From: an uncultured Prevotellaceae bacterium
GTDB taxonomy: Bacteria; Bacteroidota; Bacteroidia; Bacteroidales; Bacteroidaceae
Reading direction: 5' to 3'
NCBI GenBank assembly: GCA_900314715.1
Contig: OMWI01000042.1
Span: 1-64,000, forward strand
DNA: 64,000 nucleotides
Position numbers and translations under genes: made by a program. A model generated the notes under the pieces. It was not told where the DNA came from. It made no database searches and worked only from the letters and a program-made list of their open reading frames with translations. This document shows positions 3,920 to 14,441 of the stretch, piece after piece. The stretch's first letter is position 1, and every line of letters begins with the position of its first letter.

Positions 3920-4831
3920 CCACCCTTTGTTGCTGACATGTCAACAAGTATTCCGCCACTACATGGCTGAAATGAACTCGTTTGACTTTACGTCGGAGGA
4001 TTTATTCATCGAGGTGGCAAATGTGATAGATGCTATTTTCGACAATCCTTCTTTTGCCAATGAATATATAGAAGAAATGTGGGATAACTTGAAAATAGAG
4101 TTGAAGACAAGAGAGAAACCTGCCCCTCCACAAGAAGACCTTAACACGGTGTGTGGAGTGTTATTCTATATCGTCGCTGCCGTGCTTAGTCTTCATTGGA
4201 GGGAATATTACAACACAAAAATGGTTAAGCAATTGTGTAAGATAGTAGAGCAAAAGGCAATATTCTCCAAAATGGCGAACAGGAAGAAATCATCAAAAAC
4301 CTATGCAAACACGCTGAGGGTTTGGAGGACTGGATAAATGAGTATGATGAAAGCGAGGAATGGCTGTCGGATGAAATAGAGAAGGTTAATACGCAGCAAC
4401 TTCGAGCCGATAATAAGACAGATAAACCAGAGTTCAATCCAATTACAACGACATTCCTAAAGGCTGGCACAGTATTAGACGCTAATATAACACTTGTTTT
4501 TCAACAATTGCTAAAATATAAATGGATTGCAGCAAATTCTAATCCTGACGCTTTTTATACTTTGTTTTCTGGCAAAGCCTCAGAGATGACCATTGTTTGG
4601 ATGAAGGCAAAAGGATTGTTGCACGACCTATTCAAGATGTTAATTGATGAAAAATTGATTACTTGTCCAGATGGTTATGGTTACTTGCAAATTGTTTCTT
4701 CACATTTTACAGATGAAAAAGGCAACTATCTTATTAACCTGAATAGCGGGTATAAAGGCAAGAAGATACAAGCTAATTTGAGTCATATTCTTATACTCAT
4801 GAAAACTAAATATCACCCAGAAGATGATTAA
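3858..4831 (+). pseudogene. Hypothetical gene split by a one-base frameshift
   Basis: Two frames, 3858-4337 (159 aa) and 4241-4831, read as one protein if a base is added in the A-run near 4249-4253. The first frame runs well to KQLCKIVEQK, then turns into KKSSKTYANT-like sequence and stops. The second frame, open from 4241, gives GNILQNGEQEEIIKNLC and then HAEGLEDWINEYDESEEW. The only start in the downstream frame near its coding part is TTG at 4322. A joined product would be about 320 residues. The family is not recognised; the C-terminal part (HFTDEKGNYLINLNSG) resembles proteins I associate with Bacteroidota mobile elements. A sequencing error or programmed slippage cannot be excluded. 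The start at 3858 overlaps the preceding gene; ATG 3963 is an alternative. Confidence 0.6.
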
Positions 4832-4884
4832 ACCTCTGCTGTTTCCTCGGCAGTAACAATTATTTTTCATTTTTTCTTCATTTG

Positions 4885-4915
4885 TAATAACAGGCTGATA
4901 ATTAGTCTGTTATTA
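4885..4915 (+). terminator. Hairpin downstream of the split gene
   Basis: A perfect 9-bp stem, TAATAACAG (4885-4893) with CTGTTATTA (4907-4915), is followed by a T-rich stretch. It is a plausible terminator for the 2891-4831 genes. Confidence 0.5.
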
Positions 4916-4992
4916 TTATTTGTATTTACTCTTTCCACCAAAGTTTATTACAAGGCTGAGATTCTTGCCGAGATTTTAGCCGAGATTTTATA

Positions 4993-5034
4993 GGGGTTTC
5001 TCCGAAAAGTGAAACCCCACCTTACGTGAGGTGG
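4993..5034 (+). promoter_or_regulatory. Two adjacent hairpins just upstream of the primase module
   Basis: GGGGTTTC (4993-5000) pairs perfectly with GAAACCCC (5011-5018). CCACCT (5017-5022) pairs with AGGTGG (5029-5034). The two stems share two bases, so they are mutually exclusive at the join. They end 15 bp before the ATG at 5050. A direct repeat of GCCGAGATTTTA-like units lies just upstream (about 4950-4990). This could be a translational or transcriptional control site. Confidence 0.4.
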
Positions 5035-5049
5035 AAAAATATTTGTTAT

Positions 5050-5334
5050 ATGAAAAATAATTTATTCAAAGTAGTTTCACAGGGAGATGTGAGCTACATC
5101 CCCTCCACTAAGCAGGAGGGCGGCCAATTGGCCAAGAGTGTTATCCGACTCAAGGAGCTCGGAAGTGGAAAATTCGGGAACGAGTACGCTTGTACGCTTT
5201 TCGGCAATCTCGCTTTGTGCAAGTTCTACGAAAATGATTTGGTGGCGGCTTCGTTGCGCTTCCAAGTTCATGAGGTGAACGGCATTCTTTATCAGGAAAT
5301 TGTTGCTAACGACATTGTTAAATTGGTGAAATAG
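5050..5334 (+). CDS. Small OB-fold, SSB-like protein (DUF3127-type)
   Basis: 94 residues from ATG 5050; a GTG at 5026 in the same frame lies inside a hairpin and is less likely. The second half, with VAASLRFQVHEVNG then YQEIVANDIVKLVK, matches the last strands of the OB fold in single-strand DNA-binding proteins and DUF3127. It ends one base before the next gene, and the third gene encodes a primase-helicase, so ssDNA binding during replication of an element is a reasonable inference. Similarity is at fold level; function is unproven. Confidence 0.55.
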   Translation: MKNNLFKVVSQGDVSYIPSTKQEGGQLAKSVIRLKELGSGKFGNEYACTLFGNLALCKFYENDLVAASLRFQVHEVNGILYQEIVANDIVKLVK

Positions 5335-5335
5335 T

Positions 5336-5836
5336 ATGGCACAGAATCAAGAAAATAATACGCCCAAGCCCCGCAAAGTTCGGGGTGTGGGCTCGTTTGA
5401 CGGGGAAAAATTCTCTTTCAGGCCTTCAGAACCAGGCGAGACGACGCAACTGAATGTTCGCAGCACTTTAGGCGGCAAACTGTTTACCACAACCAGCGCA
5501 CGGAAGCCCTTACAGGTGGCTCATCTGACTTGTGCTGCCGATTGTCCTGACCCGTGGAACGAATATGTTGACCAGCTGAAAAGGTTGGGCGTGAAGCCAC
5601 AGAAGATTTCACGGGAGCCGAAAGGTTTGCGCGTGGTGAGTGAGGACGGTTTGCAATGCTGGCTCAACGAGGATAAGAGCGAGATGGTTTTCATGGGTAC
5701 CATCAATCTCACCTTGCACTATCGCGACTGGCAGGCAGAGGTGTTGCGGCAGGTGCAACTCGTAGTACGTAGGTTGCCCATCAGCGACAGGTTTAACAAA
5801 CTGATGAACTTGATTAGGAAAGGAGGACAGAGATGA
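5336..5836 (+). CDS. Hypothetical protein of the primase module
   Basis: 166 residues, soluble, basic at both ends (KPRKVRGVG near the N-terminus, NLIRKGGQR at the C-terminus). I recognise no family. It starts one base after the OB-fold gene, and its last 4 bp overlap the start of the primase-helicase gene (ATGA-type overlap), so all three are translated together. A nucleic-acid accessory role is inferred from position only. Confidence 0.65.
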   Translation: MAQNQENNTPKPRKVRGVGSFDGEKFSFRPSEPGETTQLNVRSTLGGKLFTTTSARKPLQVAHLTCAADCPDPWNEYVDQLKRLGVKPQKISREPKGLRVVSEDGLQCWLNEDKSEMVFMGTINLTLHYRDWQAEVLRQVQLVVRRLPISDRFNKLMNLIRKGGQR

Positions 5837-8445
5837 GAAGCTTTCAGCAAAACATCGACAAGCCCTGCGGAGAAATCACTCCGCAGGCATTGGAAGACTT
5901 GTGCCGTTCGAGCATCGTGAACAATGCCATAGACTCTTTCCGCAAGGCAAAGCAACAGATGGCAGAGGCCAAGACGGATGAGGAAAGAAAGCTGTTTTGC
6001 GCTACCGTCATCAAGAGTAAGGCGTATAAGGTTTGGCTCGCCCAAGAACTGAAAAAAGACGAGCAGAGAAAGAAGCAGAGGTTTCCTACGGACAAATTGA
6101 AACGCGTTACGCTCTACATCGAACAGATGAAGAGTACGCTGCCTGCCATCATCCCTACGGCCAACTTCACGGAGAGCGTGGACAGATGGGGGCGCAAGGG
6201 CAAATGGCGCGTACAGGAGCATTGCATCTTGACGGGGTTGGCGGTGCTTGATGCCGACCATGTATCAGACCCCGAGGCATACGTGAAGGAGTGGCTGGAA
6301 CGCGAGGACTTCAAGGACTTGGGTATCGTGTGGATATTCATCACCCCTTCGGGCAAAGGCATCAAGGTGGTGTTTAAGGCGCGTGAGGAATGGGGAAACC
6401 TACAGGACAACGTGTATCAGATGGCGGAGATGTTGGGTGTGCTTGACTATGCCGACATGCAATGTAAGAACTCTGACAGAGCCCATTTTATTCCCCGCTA
6501 CGACGACATCAGGTTTGTTGACTGGGAACAACTGTTCAATTACGAGAACGCCGCATACGAGGCTCGATATGGCGAGGCATACCGTCAGGGAGATTCTGCT
6601 CCCACACAACCCCGTTGGCAGGAGTTGGAACAGCAGCGCAAGAAGACTCGTTCGGTGAAGGGCAAGGCACAAGCGCAAGACAAGGCTGATAGTGCCCCAA
6701 ATGCCACGAATGAGAATACCACTGCCCTACCCTCTGCCGACACCCTTACGGAGCGTGACAAGGCCATTATTGCAGCCATAGACGGCTATTATGGGGAGGC
6801 ATTGCCAGTAGGCAGAAGGCATGAGACATTCCTCGGTGAGACGGCTCAATGGCTCTTGCTGCTGACGGACAACAATGCGCAGAAGGCACTCGCCATAGGA
6901 CGGGAACTGAGGTACGTGAAGAACTGGACAGACATGGCACCAGATGAGTTGGAGAACTGCATTTCCACGGTGCAGAAGAAGCCCTTGCTGCGTCGCCGTC
7001 CGAAAGCACTTGCAGAACTGATGAAGAAGGCTGGCATAGACGCGGAGCAAGCTGAGGAAGTGCCACAAGGCATTGACCCCATGGCAGACATGCCCTTCGA
7101 CAAATGGTGTGAGCGGATAGAGGGTTTCTTCGACGTGTATCCCTGTCTGCGAGAGGTGTGCGAACCCCATCCACGTAGGTTGTGGCCTTTCTTGCTCTTT
7201 GCCTCGGCAGCGATGATGGGTACTTGCATGACGTTGACATACTATCGGTTTTATGCCGACCAGACCATCAGGTGTCGTCTGAACTATATCATCTTAGGCG
7301 TGGGTGACCCCGCAAGCGGAAAGGGTACGTTGAATCGCCTGCAAGAACTATTGCTGGCTCCTATCATCGAGTCGGACAGGATGGCAGACGAAGCCACCAA
7401 CAACTGGAAGGAGATGAAGGATAATGCGGCCAACAATAAGGATACGAGGGTACGCGACAAAATCTATAACCGCATGTTTGGTCCCAGAGCATCGAACACC
7501 GAGTTTATCCGTAGCATGATTAACTGCAAGACGCTGGTGGACGGTGAGGACATGAATAACCACCTCATTACCGTTGACTCGGAGAAAGACAACTCTATCA
7601 ACATGTCTAAATCGGGAGGTTGGCAGAATCGCGACATCATGGTGCTGAAAGCGTTTCATAATGAGTATGACTCGCAGCACTATTCGAATAACCAGTCGGT
7701 GAGCGGAAGGTTTCGCGTGTATTGGAACCAAATAGAGACGTGTACGCCTCCCACGCTGAAACGATTAGTGAATGAGCGAAACTTCAACTCTGGTCTTGAC
7801 ACCCGTATGGCTACCATTCCCATGGGTAAGCCCGACTTCGAGATGATACCACTGGAGAACAAGAACGACAAGTTCATCAAAGCCAATGAGACGTTGCGGG
7901 AATGGAGCTACAAGCTGGATCAACGACGCGGGGAACTGCCTTTGTGGCCATTGGTGGAACACGTGCACAAGTGGTGTGACGAGCGTAGGGCCATAGCCAA
8001 GTTTAACAATGAAGACCAGGCTGACTGGTTGCTCATCAAGCGCGTGCCCTACTATGGCATCAACGTATCGGCTCCCTACATCGAGATGCGACATTGGGAG
8101 GAGCGCGAACAGACAGGCACTTACCAGATTGACGATACAGACCGCGAATTGTGCGACCTGGTGCTGGATATACAATATCGCACGCAGTTGCATTGGTTCT
8201 ACGACTTGCACCGCCTGTATTACGACAACCAACTGCGCGAGGCCGCACAGCAACGTCGTAGGACGAATAAGTTCGTGGAGTGTTTCCGTCAGCTACCTAA
8301 TGAGTTTTCAACGGATATGTTTACGCAAGTCTTCGGCTATGCCAACAATCGCTCTGGGCAGAAGACATTGGAACGCTTGATTAATGACAAGGCCATTAAG
8401 CGAACCATGCGAGGCAACTATAAAAAGCTCGTTCAGGAATTGTAG
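5833..8445 (+). CDS. Primase-helicase of mobile-element type (BT4734-like N-terminus, DUF3987/VirE-like ATPase)
   Basis: 870 residues. An N-terminal region (about 110-230) contains VLDADHVSDPEAY near 138 and TPSGKGIKVVF near 171, the pattern of the BT4734-like/PrimPol-type domain. A P-loop ATPase follows, with GVGDPASGKGTL at about 488-499. The last 60 residues look like a winged helix (STDMFTQVFGYANN then LERLINDKAIKRTMRGNYKK). Bacteroidota chromosomes and integrated elements commonly carry this protein, often annotated as virulence protein E; it is thought to act in element replication. It overlaps the preceding gene by 4 bp. The GC-richer composition contrasts with the 1-4.8 kb island. Confidence 0.8.
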   Translation: MRSFQQNIDKPCGEITPQALEDLCRSSIVNNAIDSFRKAKQQMAEAKTDEERKLFCATVIKSKAYKVWLAQELKKDEQRKKQRFPTDKLKRVTLYIEQMKSTLPAIIPTANFTESVDRWGRKGKWRVQEHCILTGLAVLDADHVSDPEAYVKEWLEREDFKDLGIVWIFITPSGKGIKVVFKAREEWGNLQDNVYQMAEMLGVLDYADMQCKNSDRAHFIPRYDDIRFVDWEQLFNYENAAYEARYGEAYRQGDSAPTQPRWQELEQQRKKTRSVKGKAQAQDKADSAPNATNENTTALPSADTLTERDKAIIAAIDGYYGEALPVGRRHETFLGETAQWLLLLTDNNAQKALAIGRELRYVKNWTDMAPDELENCISTVQKKPLLRRRPKALAELMKKAGIDAEQAEEVPQGIDPMADMPFDKWCERIEGFFDVYPCLREVCEPHPRRLWPFLLFASAAMMGTCMTLTYYRFYADQTIRCRLNYIILGVGDPASGKGTLNRLQELLLAPIIESDRMADEATNNWKEMKDNAANNKDTRVRDKIYNRMFGPRASNTEFIRSMINCKTLVDGEDMNNHLITVDSEKDNSINMSKSGGWQNRDIMVLKAFHNEYDSQHYSNNQSVSGRFRVYWNQIETCTPPTLKRLVNERNFNSGLDTRMATIPMGKPDFEMIPLENKNDKFIKANETLREWSYKLDQRRGELPLWPLVEHVHKWCDERRAIAKFNNEDQADWLLIKRVPYYGINVSAPYIEMRHWEEREQTGTYQIDDTDRELCDLVLDIQYRTQLHWFYDLHRLYYDNQLREAAQQRRRTNKFVECFRQLPNEFSTDMFTQVFGYANNRSGQKTLERLINDKAIKRTMRGNYKKLVQEL

Positions 8446-8612: not shown

Positions 8613-11609
8613 CTACGGCATTTCTTCATTTGAAGAGACGTTTGAGGGTTCTTTGGATAATAATTTCTTTATAAAACCTTCCAATTCTTCTTTTGATGCT
8701 CCCGTCTGTATCGTCTTAATGATTTGGAAGATTTTCAAAAACTCCTTTGTATTTTTTGTGTATGGATGATTGGAACCAAATACTTTCACAAAGATGTCTA
8801 CTGCCTTCTGCAAATATTCGAGTGCATTGGGATAGTCTCCTTGGACACCGTAAGCCACACCGATATTAGAGTATACTCCCGCAGTATCTGGATGATTCTT
8901 TCCCAGTACCTTCTCACGGATGGCTAATGCCTTGAAATAGTACTCAAGTGCCTTAGAATAGTCTACCTGACTTAAGTAAAACCCAGCAATGTTGTTGTAT
9001 GTCGTGGCAGTAGAAGGATGATCAATTCCCAGTACTTTCTCTTTGATTCTCAACGCTTTCTGATAATACAGAAATGCCTGTGGGTAGTTCCCCAGACCTT
9101 CATAGACACTGCCAATGTTGCTATAGCTCATAGCGGTATTGGGATGATCCGTGCCTAAAACCTTCTCGCGGATGGCTAATGCCTTGAAATAGTACTCGAG
9201 TGCTTTGGGATAGTCGCCCTGGTTGTAGTAGGTCAGTCCGATGTTGTTGTAGTTCGTGGCTGTATCGGGATACTCCTTGCCATGAACCATCTCTAAGATG
9301 TCTGAAACCTTCTGTTTGTACTCGAGTGCCTGAGGATAGTCGCCTTGGCTTCTGTAAATCTCACTGATGTTGTTGTAACTCGTGGCAGTATCGGGATGCT
9401 CCTTGCCCATAACCTTCTCACGGATGTCCAATGCCTTGAAATAGTACTCGAGTGCCTTGGGATAATTGATTTGTTTTTCGTAGGTCTTACCGATGTTGTT
9501 GTAGCTCGTGGCAGTATCGGGATGCTCCTTGCCCATAACCTTCTCACAGATGTCCAACGCCTTGAAATAGTACTCGAGTGCTTTGGGATAGTCGCCCTGG
9601 CTGTCGTAGGCCTGTCCTATGTTGTTATAGTTTAAGGCGGTAGTGGGATGCTCCTTGCCCATAACCTTCTCACGGATGTTCAACGCCTTAAAAAAATACT
9701 CGAGTGATTTGGGATAATCACCCTGGCTGTAGTAGAAACCACCGATGTTGTTGTAGCTCGTGGCGGTAGCGGGATGTTCCTTTCCCAGCACCTTCTCTTG
9801 GATGTCCAGCGCCTTGAAATAGTACTCGAGTGCCTTGGAATAGTCACCCTGGCTGTAATAAGTCAATCCGATGTTGTTGTAGCTTAAGGCTGTAGTGGGA
9901 TGTTCTTTGCCAAGAACCTTCTCAAGGATGTACAAAGCCTTAAAATAGTACTCGAGTGATTTGGGATAATCACCCTGGTTGTAGTAGATCAGTCCGATGT
10001 TGTTATAGCTTAAGGCCGTAGTGGGATGTTCTTTGCCAAGAACCTTCTCATGAATGGCCAGGGCCTTGAAATGGTACTGAAGTGATTTGGGATAGTCACC
10101 CTGACTGCAATAAGTCAGTCCGATATTGTTGTAGCTTAAGGCGGTAGAGGGATGTTCCTTGACAAGAACCTTCTCTTGGATGTCCAATGCCTTGAAAAAG
10201 AACTCGAGTGATTGGGGAAAATCGCCTTGGTTATAGTAGGTCAGTCCGATGTTATTGTAGCTCGCGGCAGTATAGGGATGCCCATTGCCAAGAACCTTCT
10301 CAAGGATGTCCAACGCCTTGAAATAGTACTCGAGTGATTTGGAATAGTCGCCTAAATTATCGTAGATCATTCCGATATTATTGCAACTCGTTGCGGTATC
10401 GGGATGCTCCTTGCCAAGTGTCGCCTCGCGGAGGGAAAAAAGGCGGAGATAAATAGGCTCAGCTTCCTTGTACTTTCCATAGTCATAAAGGAAACGGGCA
10501 TAGTCGTCCAGCAGCCCATCAAGCTTGCCATCAGGCAAGGCACTGTCCTCAGCCCATTGGTCAGCTTTGACATAGATGGCATGTACTTCCTTGATTCTCT
10601 CCTCAATGGGAGTGTTCACCTCCGCCATTTTCGTCTTCGCCTGCAACAGGAATGCCTCTATGTCCTTATGCACCAGTTCACGGTCCTGTTGTACCAGTTC
10701 GAGGTCATGCTTCAGATTGGCATAATGTGTTTCTGCTTCGCTGGCTATTTCATCTAATAGCGTGTTTGCCCTTTCCATGTTTCCCGACTCGAATGCCTCC
10801 GTGGCACGGCGCAATTTGTCATTCAACTGGTCTTTCTGCATTATCGCAATGCGTTGAGACGTTTCGAAAAGGGCTTGCTGCAAACGGGCGAATTCTTCTT
10901 TCAAATAGTTGTATCGGTTCAGCTTCTTCTGTAGTTCCCCTTGTAGATAATCATTGTCCGGGTGTTCGTCCAAGAACTTCCGCGCATTTTCTATTTCTTT
11001 GGGAAGGTTTTTCAGTTCAGCACTGATTCGCTGGTAGTCCTTATTGTATGAGGCAAAGGACAAGTTGGACATCTCGGCAACGGGCATGTCCCCTAATTTC
11101 ACGGTCCCGTCCTCCAATTTTAAGTGTATTAGACCATTCGCGCACAAAATCAACAACTGTTGGATAAAATGTAGGCGAAGATAGTCTTGGCTATTAAATG
11201 TCGTCCAATAGAGTCCCATGACTTTGAGCCTCTGTTGAAATCCTTCCAGTTGTGAATCCAGTTTAAGCCCTTCCAGTAACTTTTTCATATAGACATAGAC
11301 CTTCGGGGATTTCTTATTCCTGTTAAACTCCTCAATGGCCACGTCGAATTCATGAATGGTATGTTCTCCACCAATGGTGTAGAACAGTGCCAAGAACAAA
11401 TCGGAACGTGTAATACAAATATCATATTCTTTTTGTTCGGGATGACCTTTCCATGCAGCATTAAAGTCTTCCCACATTTGCAGTTCTAATAAGATTCCAA
11501 ACTGTCTGAATGTTTTATTGATACGGCGTACGAAACTGCTGAAAAATTCGCGGTCGTCAGAAAGTTCAGTTGATGATGCAAGAAATACATTAATGGTCTT
11601 CTCTTCCAT
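8613..11609 (-). CDS. TIR/DUF4062-like N-terminal domain, coiled coil and about 13 kinesin-light-chain-type TPRs
   Basis: 998 residues. Residues 1-110 (NVFLASSTELSDDREFF, then SDLFLALFYTIGG and HTIHEFDVAIEEF with E87) resemble the DUF4062 branch of TIR-like domains: FLASS strand, central SDxFxALF strand, and a conserved Glu where TIR NADases keep theirs. A helical, probably coiled-coil region (about 180-340) follows. Then come about 13 TPRs of 42 residues (YNNIGLTYYNQGDYPKALEY type). No signal peptide, so it is cytosolic. It is the last gene of an operon with the macro-domain remnant and the paralogue at 12330-14441. TPR arrays of this type commonly sense proteins. NAD-linked or Thoeris-like defence is inference. 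The C-terminal codons (EEMP) lie in a dispersed TGCCTACGGCATTTC repeat. Confidence 0.8.
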   Translation of the reverse strand: MEEKTINVFLASSTELSDDREFFSSFVRRINKTFRQFGILLELQMWEDFNAAWKGHPEQKEYDICITRSDLFLALFYTIGGEHTIHEFDVAIEEFNRNKKSPKVYVYMKKLLEGLKLDSQLEGFQQRLKVMGLYWTTFNSQDYLRLHFIQQLLILCANGLIHLKLEDGTVKLGDMPVAEMSNLSFASYNKDYQRISAELKNLPKEIENARKFLDEHPDNDYLQGELQKKLNRYNYLKEEFARLQQALFETSQRIAIMQKDQLNDKLRRATEAFESGNMERANTLLDEIASEAETHYANLKHDLELVQQDRELVHKDIEAFLLQAKTKMAEVNTPIEERIKEVHAIYVKADQWAEDSALPDGKLDGLLDDYARFLYDYGKYKEAEPIYLRLFSLREATLGKEHPDTATSCNNIGMIYDNLGDYSKSLEYYFKALDILEKVLGNGHPYTAASYNNIGLTYYNQGDFPQSLEFFFKALDIQEKVLVKEHPSTALSYNNIGLTYCSQGDYPKSLQYHFKALAIHEKVLGKEHPTTALSYNNIGLIYYNQGDYPKSLEYYFKALYILEKVLGKEHPTTALSYNNIGLTYYSQGDYSKALEYYFKALDIQEKVLGKEHPATATSYNNIGGFYYSQGDYPKSLEYFFKALNIREKVMGKEHPTTALNYNNIGQAYDSQGDYPKALEYYFKALDICEKVMGKEHPDTATSYNNIGKTYEKQINYPKALEYYFKALDIREKVMGKEHPDTATSYNNISEIYRSQGDYPQALEYKQKVSDILEMVHGKEYPDTATNYNNIGLTYYNQGDYPKALEYYFKALAIREKVLGTDHPNTAMSYSNIGSVYEGLGNYPQAFLYYQKALRIKEKVLGIDHPSTATTYNNIAGFYLSQVDYSKALEYYFKALAIREKVLGKNHPDTAGVYSNIGVAYGVQGDYPNALEYLQKAVDIFVKVFGSNHPYTKNTKEFLKIFQIIKTIQTGASKEELEGFIKKLLSKEPSNVSSNEEMP

Positions 11610-11638
11610 GGCGTTCTTGTTAATGTTAGCAATAGATG

Positions 11639-12311
11639 TTACAGATTATCGATTGGCACCAAGTCCTTCTGTTTATCCCATACAACAATATGGAAGTCGC
11701 ATCTTAATCTATTCTTGTTAAGTTCAAAGGCACTCACCAGATAGCGAAGAATTTCAGACTCTTCTAAACCTCAGGTTTCCTTTCGGCTTGACAGCCGTCG
11801 TCAGCAGCTGGTAGGGTTTACCAGCCAATGAATCCTGAATGGTCTTGTTCAGGCTTTCCTCGTCGAACTTCCCTTCATCATAGAAGCGCTGGAACAACTG
11901 TCCATGAAGACTATTAAGTGAGACAAGGTGGTCATCGACAATCGTATCAAAGCACCTGTTGACATCTATTACAATCTTCCGTTTGTCCGAGTATTTCTTA
12001 CCGACCACCTTGTGAGAAAACACGTCACCGTATTGAACATACACGTGATGCCCTGCCTTGGTGAGGACGCACACCTTATTCGTAAATAAGACACGCACGG
12101 CGGATGCTAATGCAAGCAACACGAACAAGGCGATGAACGCCGCACAGCCAATCAGCACCTTGCAGACAATGGGACACTTTTCGGGAATCAATTCGGTCAT
12201 CGGCACGAACAGCGCCACGAAGCACAGAACGGTCATCGCAATTCCAGTCCAAGTCCAAGCCCTTCTGAGAATGACCTGCCAGTTTATCCGTATTCTGTTT
12301 TGTATGCTCAT
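11639..12311 (-). pseudogene. Decayed two-TM plus macro-domain protein (ThsA-like, formerly DUF6430)
   Basis: The first frame (12311-11754, 185 aa) has two membrane helices (about 18-42 and 50-75). It continues with the start of a macro-like domain: DVNRCFDTIVDDHLVSLNSL, then HGQLFQRFY. It stops after AVKPKGNLRFRRV. In the -1 frame, 11770-11639 encodes the family's C-terminus: GLEESEILRYLVSAFELN, then HIVVWDKQKDLVPIDNL, followed by TAA. The middle of the domain (the GTVA-like core, roughly 70 residues by family expectation) is absent, so there is a deletion plus a frameshift. Intact relatives are the type II Thoeris ThsA proteins, membrane effectors triggered by TIR-made nucleotides. It starts 18 bp after one TPR gene and ends 29 bp before the other. 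A short functional product is conceivable but unlikely. Confidence 0.7.
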
Positions 12312-12329
12312 AATACTATATTGTATTCT

Positions 12330-14441
12330 TTATTTAATAGAGTTCAAATTCTTTCTTACTATCTTTGTGGATGGATGATTATGACCTAACACTTTTTCAA
12401 AGATATCTAAAGCCTTTTGATAGTACTCGAGTGCCTTTGTATAGTCTCCCTTTTTTTTGTATGTCAGTCCGATGTTATTGTATGAACTGGCAGTATAGGG
12501 GTGCTCCTCTCCTAAAACCTTCTTAACTATGTCCAGCGCCTTTTGATAGTACTCGATTGCCTTTGTAAAGTCTCCTAAGTTGTAGTAGGTCGTTCCAATG
12601 TTGTTATAACTCGTGGCTGTATCTGGATGCTCCTTTCCCAGCACCTTCTCACAGATTGCCAAATCCTTGAAATAGTACTTGAGTGCCTTTGTATAGTCTC
12701 CCTGGCTTTTGTAGACCGCTCCGATGTTGTTGTAGCTTGTGGCGGTAGATGGATGCTCCTTTCCCAGCACCTTCTCGAAGATGTCTAACGCCTTGAAATA
12801 GTACTCGAGTGCCTTTGTATAGTCTCCTATGTTTCTGTTAACCAATCCGATGTTGTTGTAGCTCGTGGCAGTTTCGGGATGGTCCTTTCCCAGCACCTTC
12901 TCACGGATGTCCAACGCCTTGAAATGGTACTCGAGTGCCTTGGGATAATCTCCTAGATTTCTGTAGGTCTCTCCGATGTTGTTGTAGCTCGTGGCGGTAG
13001 ATGGATGCTCCTTTCCCAGCACCTTCTCAACGATGTTCAATGCCTTCTGATAGTACTCGAGTGCCTTTGTATAGTCTCCCTGGCTGTGGTAGACCCCCGC
13101 GATGTTGTTGTAGCTTGTGGCGGTATCTGGATGCTCCTTTCCCAGCACCTTATCTCGGATGTCCAACGCCTTGAAATGGTACTCGAGTGCCTTTGTATAG
13201 TCTCCCTGATTGTAATAGGTCGTTCCAATGTCGTTGTAGCTCGTAGCGGTATCTGAATTCTCCTTTCCCTTTGTCCCCTCGCGGAGGGAAATAAGGCGGA
13301 GATAAACGTGCTCGGCTTCCTTATACTTTCCATAGTCATAAAGGAAACTGGAATAGTCGTCCAACAGTCCGTCAAGCTTATCATCGGGCAATGCACTGTC
13401 CTTTGCCCATTGGTCTGCCTTGGCATAGATGGCATGTACCTCCTTGATTCTCTCCTCGATGGGAATTTTCACCTCTGCTATTTTCGTCTTGGTTTGCAAC
13501 AGGAACGCCTCGATGTCCTGATGAACCAGTTCGCGGTCTTGCTCAAGATTGGTATGGTGGGTTTCTGCTTCAATGGCTATTTCATCCAACAATGTGTTTG
13601 CCTTTTCCAATTTTCCCGATTCAAATGCTTCCGTTGCTCGGCGTAACTTGTCGTTCAGGTTCTCTCGCTGCATCGTTGCTATGCGTTGGGAAGTCTCGAA
13701 GAGAGTTTGTTGCAATCTGGCAAACTCCTCTTTCAAATAGTTCAAGCGGTTCTGCTTCTCTTGCAATTCGTCGCGTAGGACTTCGGCATCGGGATATTTC
13801 TCTGTAAGTTCACGGGCTTTCTTAATCTTATCAGGGAGCTTTTCGAGTTCCTCTTTCATTTGAATGTACTGTTCATTGCCAGCAGCGAAAGACAGGTTGG
13901 CAAGTTCTGCGATGTACAATCCGTCCAATGTCACCTTGTCGCCCTCCAGCTTTAACTTCATCAATTCGTTCTCAACCATCAGCAACTGTTGGACGAAACG
14001 AAGTTGAAGGTCGTCATTGTTCTTGAAATTGATCCAGAACTTCTCTTTGTCCTTCTCGTTGAGCCTGTCCTTGAACACTTCCAGTTCGGGAGTTACTTTC
14101 TCGTTTCTCTTTAAAGCCTTGCAACAGACAAACACCTTAGGGTAGCCCTTCTTTCCGAATTCTTCCATGGCAACGTCGAATTCCTCGATGGTGTATTTAC
14201 CTGCCTTCTGGTAGAACAGGGCGACAAACATATCCGACTTTCTGATCTCGTCGTTATACTTGTCCTGTGTCCTGCGATTGTCGATAAAGGCTTCCAGGTC
14301 TTCCCATTCAAACACGTCAATATTCATGCCGCGCCCAAGGTATATCTTGTTCAAGCTGCGGATGAAGTTGCCGAAACTGATGCGCTCTTCCCTCAAGTCA
14401 TCAGACGAGGCGAGGAATATCTTGAAAGTCTTCTGTTCCAT
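12330..14441 (-). CDS. TIR/DUF4062-like N-terminal domain, coiled coil and 7 kinesin-light-chain-type TPRs
   Basis: 703 residues and paralogous to the 8613-11609 product. The N-terminus (KIFLASSDDLREERISF, then SDMFVALFY and YTIEEFDVAMEEF with E87) is TIR/DUF4062-like but well diverged from its sister. The coiled-coil region (about 215-360, for instance LRRATEAFESGKLEKANTLL) is nearly the same in both. Seven 42-residue TPRs follow, against about 13 in the paralogue. It is the first gene of the operon and has the only recognisable promoter. A cytosolic sensor/signalling role is inferred. Repeat-number difference between near-identical units suggests change by recombination. Confidence 0.8.
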   Translation of the reverse strand: MEQKTFKIFLASSDDLREERISFGNFIRSLNKIYLGRGMNIDVFEWEDLEAFIDNRRTQDKYNDEIRKSDMFVALFYQKAGKYTIEEFDVAMEEFGKKGYPKVFVCCKALKRNEKVTPELEVFKDRLNEKDKEKFWINFKNNDDLQLRFVQQLLMVENELMKLKLEGDKVTLDGLYIAELANLSFAAGNEQYIQMKEELEKLPDKIKKARELTEKYPDAEVLRDELQEKQNRLNYLKEEFARLQQTLFETSQRIATMQRENLNDKLRRATEAFESGKLEKANTLLDEIAIEAETHHTNLEQDRELVHQDIEAFLLQTKTKIAEVKIPIEERIKEVHAIYAKADQWAKDSALPDDKLDGLLDDYSSFLYDYGKYKEAEHVYLRLISLREGTKGKENSDTATSYNDIGTTYYNQGDYTKALEYHFKALDIRDKVLGKEHPDTATSYNNIAGVYHSQGDYTKALEYYQKALNIVEKVLGKEHPSTATSYNNIGETYRNLGDYPKALEYHFKALDIREKVLGKDHPETATSYNNIGLVNRNIGDYTKALEYYFKALDIFEKVLGKEHPSTATSYNNIGAVYKSQGDYTKALKYYFKDLAICEKVLGKEHPDTATSYNNIGTTYYNLGDFTKAIEYYQKALDIVKKVLGEEHPYTASSYNNIGLTYKKKGDYTKALEYYQKALDIFEKVLGHNHPSTKIVRKNLNSIK

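Follow-up and report, generated by a model that had tools for sequence, protein, structure and literature searches.

The window analysed here, a stretch of 64,000 nucleotides from a draft assembly of 98 contigs, carries on its minus strand a tight cluster in which a gene that we call TPR-A is followed by the remnant of a ThsA-like gene (11639-12311) and then by a second TPR gene, TPR-B (Table 1). A first-pass annotation had described the effector gene as flanked in one operon by two TIR-like/TPR genes; its tight packing between two open genes supports this description. The G+C content is 46.6% in thsA, 45.8% in TPR-A and 44.6% in TPR-B. A promoter scan returned 14 sites against a mean of 11.1 in shuffled sequences, which is near chance, and was left unused. 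Beside the operon, positions 1001-2597 and 5833-8445 hold genes for an HNH endonuclease and a DndB-like protein (PF14072, E 5.9e-14), then a BT4734-like gene; these genes near the contig start form a possible mobile or defence region.

Table 1. Positions of the clustered genes, gene fragments, gaps and repeats in the window.
Feature	Position	Strand	Description
TPR-A	12330..14441	-	upstream gene with an open frame, 703 aa; N-terminal DUF4062/TIR-like region (about 1-160), then a middle part and the TPR array
TPR-A tandem repeats	12390..13269	-	126-bp repeats (42-aa TPR units), about 7 copies, 77% matches
TPR-A stop to thsA start gap	12312..12329	-	18 bp
thsA pseudogene, 5' part	11754..12311	-	185 aa; two hydrophobic helices and start of macro domain
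thsA 3' remnant	11639..11770	-	43 aa, other frame, TAA stop; C-terminal end of macro domain
Old thsA stop to TPR-B start gap	11610..11638	-	29 bp
TPR-B	8613..11609	-	998 aa, open, downstream gene; TPR-A paralogue with longer TPR array
TPR-B tandem repeats	9115..10418	-	126-bp repeats (42-aa TPR units), about 10 copies, 78% matches

Remnant of the ThsA-like gene

The 185-aa frame matches the Pfam family PF20016 (ThsA_Macro) with E 4.2e-12 (46.6 bits, cut-off 25), over profile positions 1-66 of 183 only, that is, the first third of the macro domain, and the PADLOC model ThsA1 with E 2.7e-23 over positions 4-183 of 297. Judged by hydropathy only, hydrophobic 19-residue windows start at residues 18-26 and 44-65. 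Among the ThsA proteins found, the nearest is L007 (intact, 313 aa, in a record titled Clostridiales bacterium), which is 36% identical to this frame (70 identities in 194 aligned columns) and has a ThsB-like gene directly downstream. A search of the window's own genome with the first frame yielded no second relative of the remnant. The two profile matches and the early stop bear out the earlier description of a decayed ThsA-like gene with two transmembrane (TM) helices and a macro domain.

The first frame ends at a stop codon at 11754-11756, and a second frame keeps the last 43 residues of the protein open (11642-11770, with the TAA stop codon extending to 11639), so that ThsA is spread over two frames. 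Aligned with the C-terminus of L007, this tail scores 75, a value that none of 500 shuffles reached (best 43). Compared with a profile of eight intact ThsA proteins it reaches 9.2 bits, more than any of 200 shuffles (2.6 at most), and aligns where such a tail should, at positions 234-270 of 284; against the other seven ThsA proteins its scores were no better than those of its own shuffles. When the entire window was scanned in six frames with the L007 protein, the first frame (E 5e-30) and the tail (E 2.6e-4) were found, and nothing else below E 0.01. The same scan with the eight-protein profile gave E 9.4e-24 for the first frame and only E 0.094 for the tail, yet the tail was the second-best match. 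The C-terminal sequence noticed in another frame has therefore survived as claimed, whereas its supposed start 15 bp past the stop was mistaken, the tail frame overlapping the end of the first.

The lesion comprises more than the frame break first recognized, which stands: in addition, some 70-75 residues are missing from the remnant, corresponding to about residues 200-272 of L007, and this stretch has no counterpart anywhere in the window (best E 0.79). Because that part is absent and the tail lies in the other frame, we read the lesion as an out-of-frame deletion in the middle of the macro domain, of roughly 215-220 bp as estimated from the L007 alignment. Ten columns are invariant in the eight intact ThsA proteins; six fall in the missing part and one in the tail, leaving three. 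The PLIGAG loop also falls in the missing stretch of the ThsA alignment, which leaves the ligand pocket incomplete. By our reading of the alignment, PLIGAG would be the loop that is described as holding the pyrophosphate in E. coli ThsA (beta8-alpha6, S217-T220 in EcThsA; PMC11204291). We also considered programmed frameshifting and rejected it: the 70-75 or so missing residues include conserved columns, so that no change of frame could restore a whole ThsA. The segment 11639-12311 on the minus strand is thus best read as a TM-macro ThsA pseudogene broken by a deletion, and with the mid-part of the macro domain deleted and the rest out of frame, the earlier view that this strain has lost the effector is upheld.

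Flanking DUF4062-type TPR proteins

TPR-B aligns with TPR-A at 64% identity over query residues 1-620, with 43% protein identity over the first 166 compared codons and 69% over the next 183. Over 358 codons dN is 0.32 and dS about 2.1, the latter near saturation, which means few amino-acid changes relative to silent ones. The TPR arrays of both proteins are assigned by Pfam families and encoded by the 126-bp repeats; TPR_NPHP3 scores 240.8 bits in TPR-B and 156.2 bits in TPR-A (cut-off 100).

The N-termini had been called TIR/DUF4062-like. TPR-A scores 22.3-23.1 bits against DUF4062, below the gathering cut-off of 24.7, and about 18 bits against TIR_2, below the cut-off of 28, while the first 200 residues of TPR-B alone match neither DUF4062 nor TIR_2, nor any other Pfam family. 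A bridge is provided by the relative L095, which passes DUF4062 (31.0 bits) and is matched by TPR-A at E 3.5e-12. A plasmid protein annotated as DUF4062 matches TPR-A at E 3e-18 and itself scores 22.5 bits, below the DUF4062 cut-off. Among 19 aligned sequences, five match DUF4062 at E 0.01 or better, all share Tyr62, Ala91 and Pro101 (TPR-A numbering), and 18, both window proteins included, have a Glu at the position of TPR-A Glu87, which we infer to be the catalytic Glu of DUF4062 NADases (E97 in KpSwz). The sequence comparisons support N-termini of the DUF4062/TIR-like kind in TPR-A and TPR-B; for DUF4062 the support comes from the sub-threshold match of TPR-A and the L095 bridge, and the published work on DUF4062 NADases agrees with it. 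Compared by hhalign, the DUF4062-type N-terminal profile and the canonical ThsB profile did not match (probability 0.3%). The N-terminus of TPR-A also matches the start of the 906-position PADLOC model PDC-S60 (E 2e-5); in all, five of the 19 aligned sequences match this model.

A preprint of May 2026 (PMC13174449) describes DUF4062 proteins as antiphage NADases of TIR-like type that use a catalytic Glu and convert NAD+ to ADP-ribose. It gives the name Swarozyc to an antiphage system, of which the protein tested protects when expressed by itself. Its authors also remark that certain members share operons with a variety of enzymes, and that their modes of action may be more complex.

The closest relative of TPR-A is L072 (42%), the rest of whose gene lies off the contig. 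TPRs were found in the DUF4062-type relatives L026 (in two genes), L073, L074, L076 and L093, and a scan of the relative L030 found none. Among those with TPRs, L073 and L074 appear to stand alone as single genes. In L076 (1144-7137), a DUF4062-like protein with NB-ARC and TPRs has an NPHP3-like order, and the cluster also holds a TIR-like gene (6448-7137) and an AAA-like gene (4564-5535), both named by eye. A shorter DUF4062-type gene (361-377 aa) recurs in four genomes (L079, L080, L083 and L084); in L079 and L080 it is followed by a row of large genes that, by eye, are alike in both.

ThsA and DUF4062-type genes in other genomes

ThsA is rare. Searching with the protein of the first frame gave matches in 6 of 301 genomes of the family, the window's own included; one of the six, L012/L039, was dropped as a weak false match. 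The same query matched 4 of 344 genomes in the order of genome G981 (itself counted) and one relative in the genome contig set, and had no match in plasmids or phages; a PF20016 search of the phylum gave 4 of 395 genomes, own included. Plasmid records were found with other ThsA queries, 5 with L007 and 83 with L045. Four of these had their neighbouring genes examined: two carry annotated TIR genes and two an unnamed gene upstream, and a DUF4062 annotation is absent from all four.

Besides the window, 11 ThsA neighbourhoods were compared. A ThsB-like gene is present in nine of them and a DUF4062-type gene in none; in L007, L071 and L038 the ThsB-like gene is short, split or truncated at the edge of a contig. 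The ThsB profile was built partly from five of the nine loci, and its match in genome G028, which supplied one profile row, is a control by construction. With this profile no ThsB was found in the window's own genome at E 0.1, nor within the window. One other locus, L069 (2124-3465), has an intact ThsA with no ThsB found nearby and, directly after it, a second small gene that looks macro-domain-like by eye.

DUF4062-type N-termini matched 10 of 299 genomes of the genus and 16 of 344 of the order, own included in both, as well as 5 of 295 genomes in the order of G981 and one plasmid record; there was no phage record. The viral contigs searched held no relative. No thsA occurs in the 25 DUF4062-type neighbourhoods (24 genomes); seven of these, L072 among them, have a DUF4062 gene no more than 1 kb from an end. 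Nor was thsA found in eight whole genomes with DUF4062-type genes, in a search without any positive among the eight, in the short loci of the weakest DUF4062 matches (G1464, G1566, G1582, G1133 and G1146) or in the DUF4062 plasmid region L096. By its predicted domains, the window is unique in this sample in having DUF4062-TPR proteins where ThsB should be. The first-pass annotation called for a search for intact TPR/TM-macro/TPR operons elsewhere and would take their absence everywhere as refuting the proposal; none was seen in the family, genus, order or phylum sets or in the order of G981, so that within this sample the outcome goes against the proposal.

Other arrangements accompany DUF4062-type genes in this sample. 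In L030, L093 (about 7 kb away) and L094 they lie near RyR-domain genes (PF02026, 114-129 bits), and in L026 and L030 near a membrane-like protein of about 700 aa with no Pfam match; the neighbourhoods span 7097-14311 in L026, 5474-10401 in L030, 262-10356 in L093 and 1634-4511 in L094. As phage RyR-domain proteins are described as degrading or sequestering ADPR-based signals (PMC13232231, a 2026 preprint), the pairing of DUF4062 with RyR may mean signalling. The cluster at 2536-14311 of L026 combines a TIR protein (614 aa), an 877-aa WD40 protein, two DUF4062-TPR proteins, the first of which has Gly in place of the near-invariant Glu, a short DUF4062-type gene and the membrane-like protein. 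No ThsA was found by profile in the L026 genome.

Possible origins of the cluster and comparison with known systems

The remnant is a real pseudogene. It lies in what is probably a defence operon, unusual in its composition and known from a single example with a dead effector. For the whole locus we propose, at slightly below even confidence, a former Thoeris-like defence operon of three genes in which the middle one has died and DUF4062-TPR proteins replaced ThsB. Beyond the gene order, every step of the mechanism is inferred. Before the deletion, the TPR arrays would sense infection and release the DUF4062 (TIR-like) NADase, which would make from NAD+ either ADP-ribose or a related base-exchange product, for example His-ADPR, the signal given for type II Thoeris in a review (PMC12360287). 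The nucleotide would then bind the macro domain of ThsA, causing ThsA to cluster and its TM helices to disrupt the membrane; the DUF4062-TPR proteins would thereby take the place of ThsB. Without the ThsA arm, which the present strain has lost, TPR-A and TPR-B could do no more than deplete NAD+ by themselves.

Generalized to a hybrid type, in which a TM-macro ThsA is triggered by an ADP-ribose-type signal from DUF4062-TPR NADases instead of ThsB, the proposal is slightly more tentative. In favour of the former three-gene operon, the remnant has the identity of a ThsA, with two fragments in the correct order and on the correct strand, and is separated from its neighbours by gaps of only 18 and 29 bp. 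The genome has no ThsB by profile; the other ThsA loci have a ThsB-like gene in 9 of 11 cases and DUF4062 in 0 of 11. Both flanking genes are open, with dN well below dS, and retain the Glu kept in 18 of 19 sequences. In the published accounts, DUF4062 makes ADP-ribose (PMC13174449), and ThsA macro domains bind ADP-ribose as well as a base-exchanged dinucleotide and then oligomerise and cluster (PMC11204291), which gives a predicted pair of product and receptor. Against it, the case is one locus with a broken effector, thsA is absent from all 25 DUF4062-type neighbourhoods and all eight whole genomes, L073 and L074 look like single genes, and the DUF4062-type and ThsB profiles do not match.

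Almost as likely as the former hybrid operon is a reading in which TPR-A and TPR-B need no effector: as Swarozyc-like NADases they would detect phage with their TPRs and deplete NAD+ unaided, thsA having been an incidental or auxiliary gene whose loss did little harm. We rate it so highly because L073 and L074 carry DUF4062-TPR genes that seem to stand singly, with no thsA close by, and because TPR-A and TPR-B kept their reading frames open whereas thsA did not; the tested Swarozyc protein, as reported, also protects alone (PMC13174449). On the other hand, the short gaps on either side of thsA speak for one operon, and ThsA usually has a TIR partner, for which no other candidate was found here.

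An ordinary Thoeris pair may instead have inserted at this site and lost thsB, the partnerless thsA then decaying, as the ThsB-like gene directly downstream of the closest ThsA, L007, might suggest. We think this improbable: the genome has no ThsB by profile, the G+C content of thsA is close to that of both TPR genes, and both thsA junctions are tight. Less probable still is a continued use of the truncated 185-aa product, for instance as a membrane protein restraining or anchoring the flanking proteins. Its 185 codons hold no further stop, but a recent deletion explains the open frame equally well, six of the ten ThsA-invariant columns lie in the missing stretch, and the macro fold is cut through. 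An assembly error hiding an intact thsA in the cell is just as hard to credit, despite the draft state of the genome, since a loss of more than 200 bp within unique sequence would be an unusual assembly fault and the nearby tandem repeats sit in the TPR genes, none in thsA.

If the hybrid type is real, a second family of TIR-like enzymes, one that senses through TPRs, can drive Thoeris effectors, and the operon has been caught here after the loss of its effector. DUF4062 coupled to a known nucleotide receptor would point to signalling and not only to NAD+ depletion. We found no description of a DUF4062-TPR and ThsA pairing in the portions of the DUF4062, Thoeris and TIR-TPR literature accessible to us; it may already be in print, as Figure S1G of PMC13174449 shows DUF4062 operons with known defence genes.

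Taken globally, the locus resembles several described systems in part. The PADLOC candidate PDC-S60 is matched only by the N-terminus of TPR-A, and the library gives it no function. With NPHP3-type proteins the window proteins share TPR arrays matching TPR_NPHP3, and some relatives match the NPHP3 N-terminal domain weakly, below cut-off; unlike them, the window proteins have no ATPase module among the best 25 Pfam families listed, whereas the relative L076 has NB-ARC. Type II Thoeris has the same TM-macro ThsA effector family, with two hydrophobic helices and a macro domain, and adjoining partner genes of TIR-like type, but the partners in the window are DUF4062-TPR proteins in place of the small ThsB, its effector is broken, and its genome has no ThsB by profile. 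With Swarozyc, finally, the window proteins share an N-terminal DUF4062-type domain with a conserved Glu, followed by a sensor-like region. They differ in C-termini that are TPR arrays by Pfam, where KpSwz is described with a portal-binding AUX domain (PMC13174449), and in that two paralogues, predicted to be NADases, stand side by side with a TM-macro gene.
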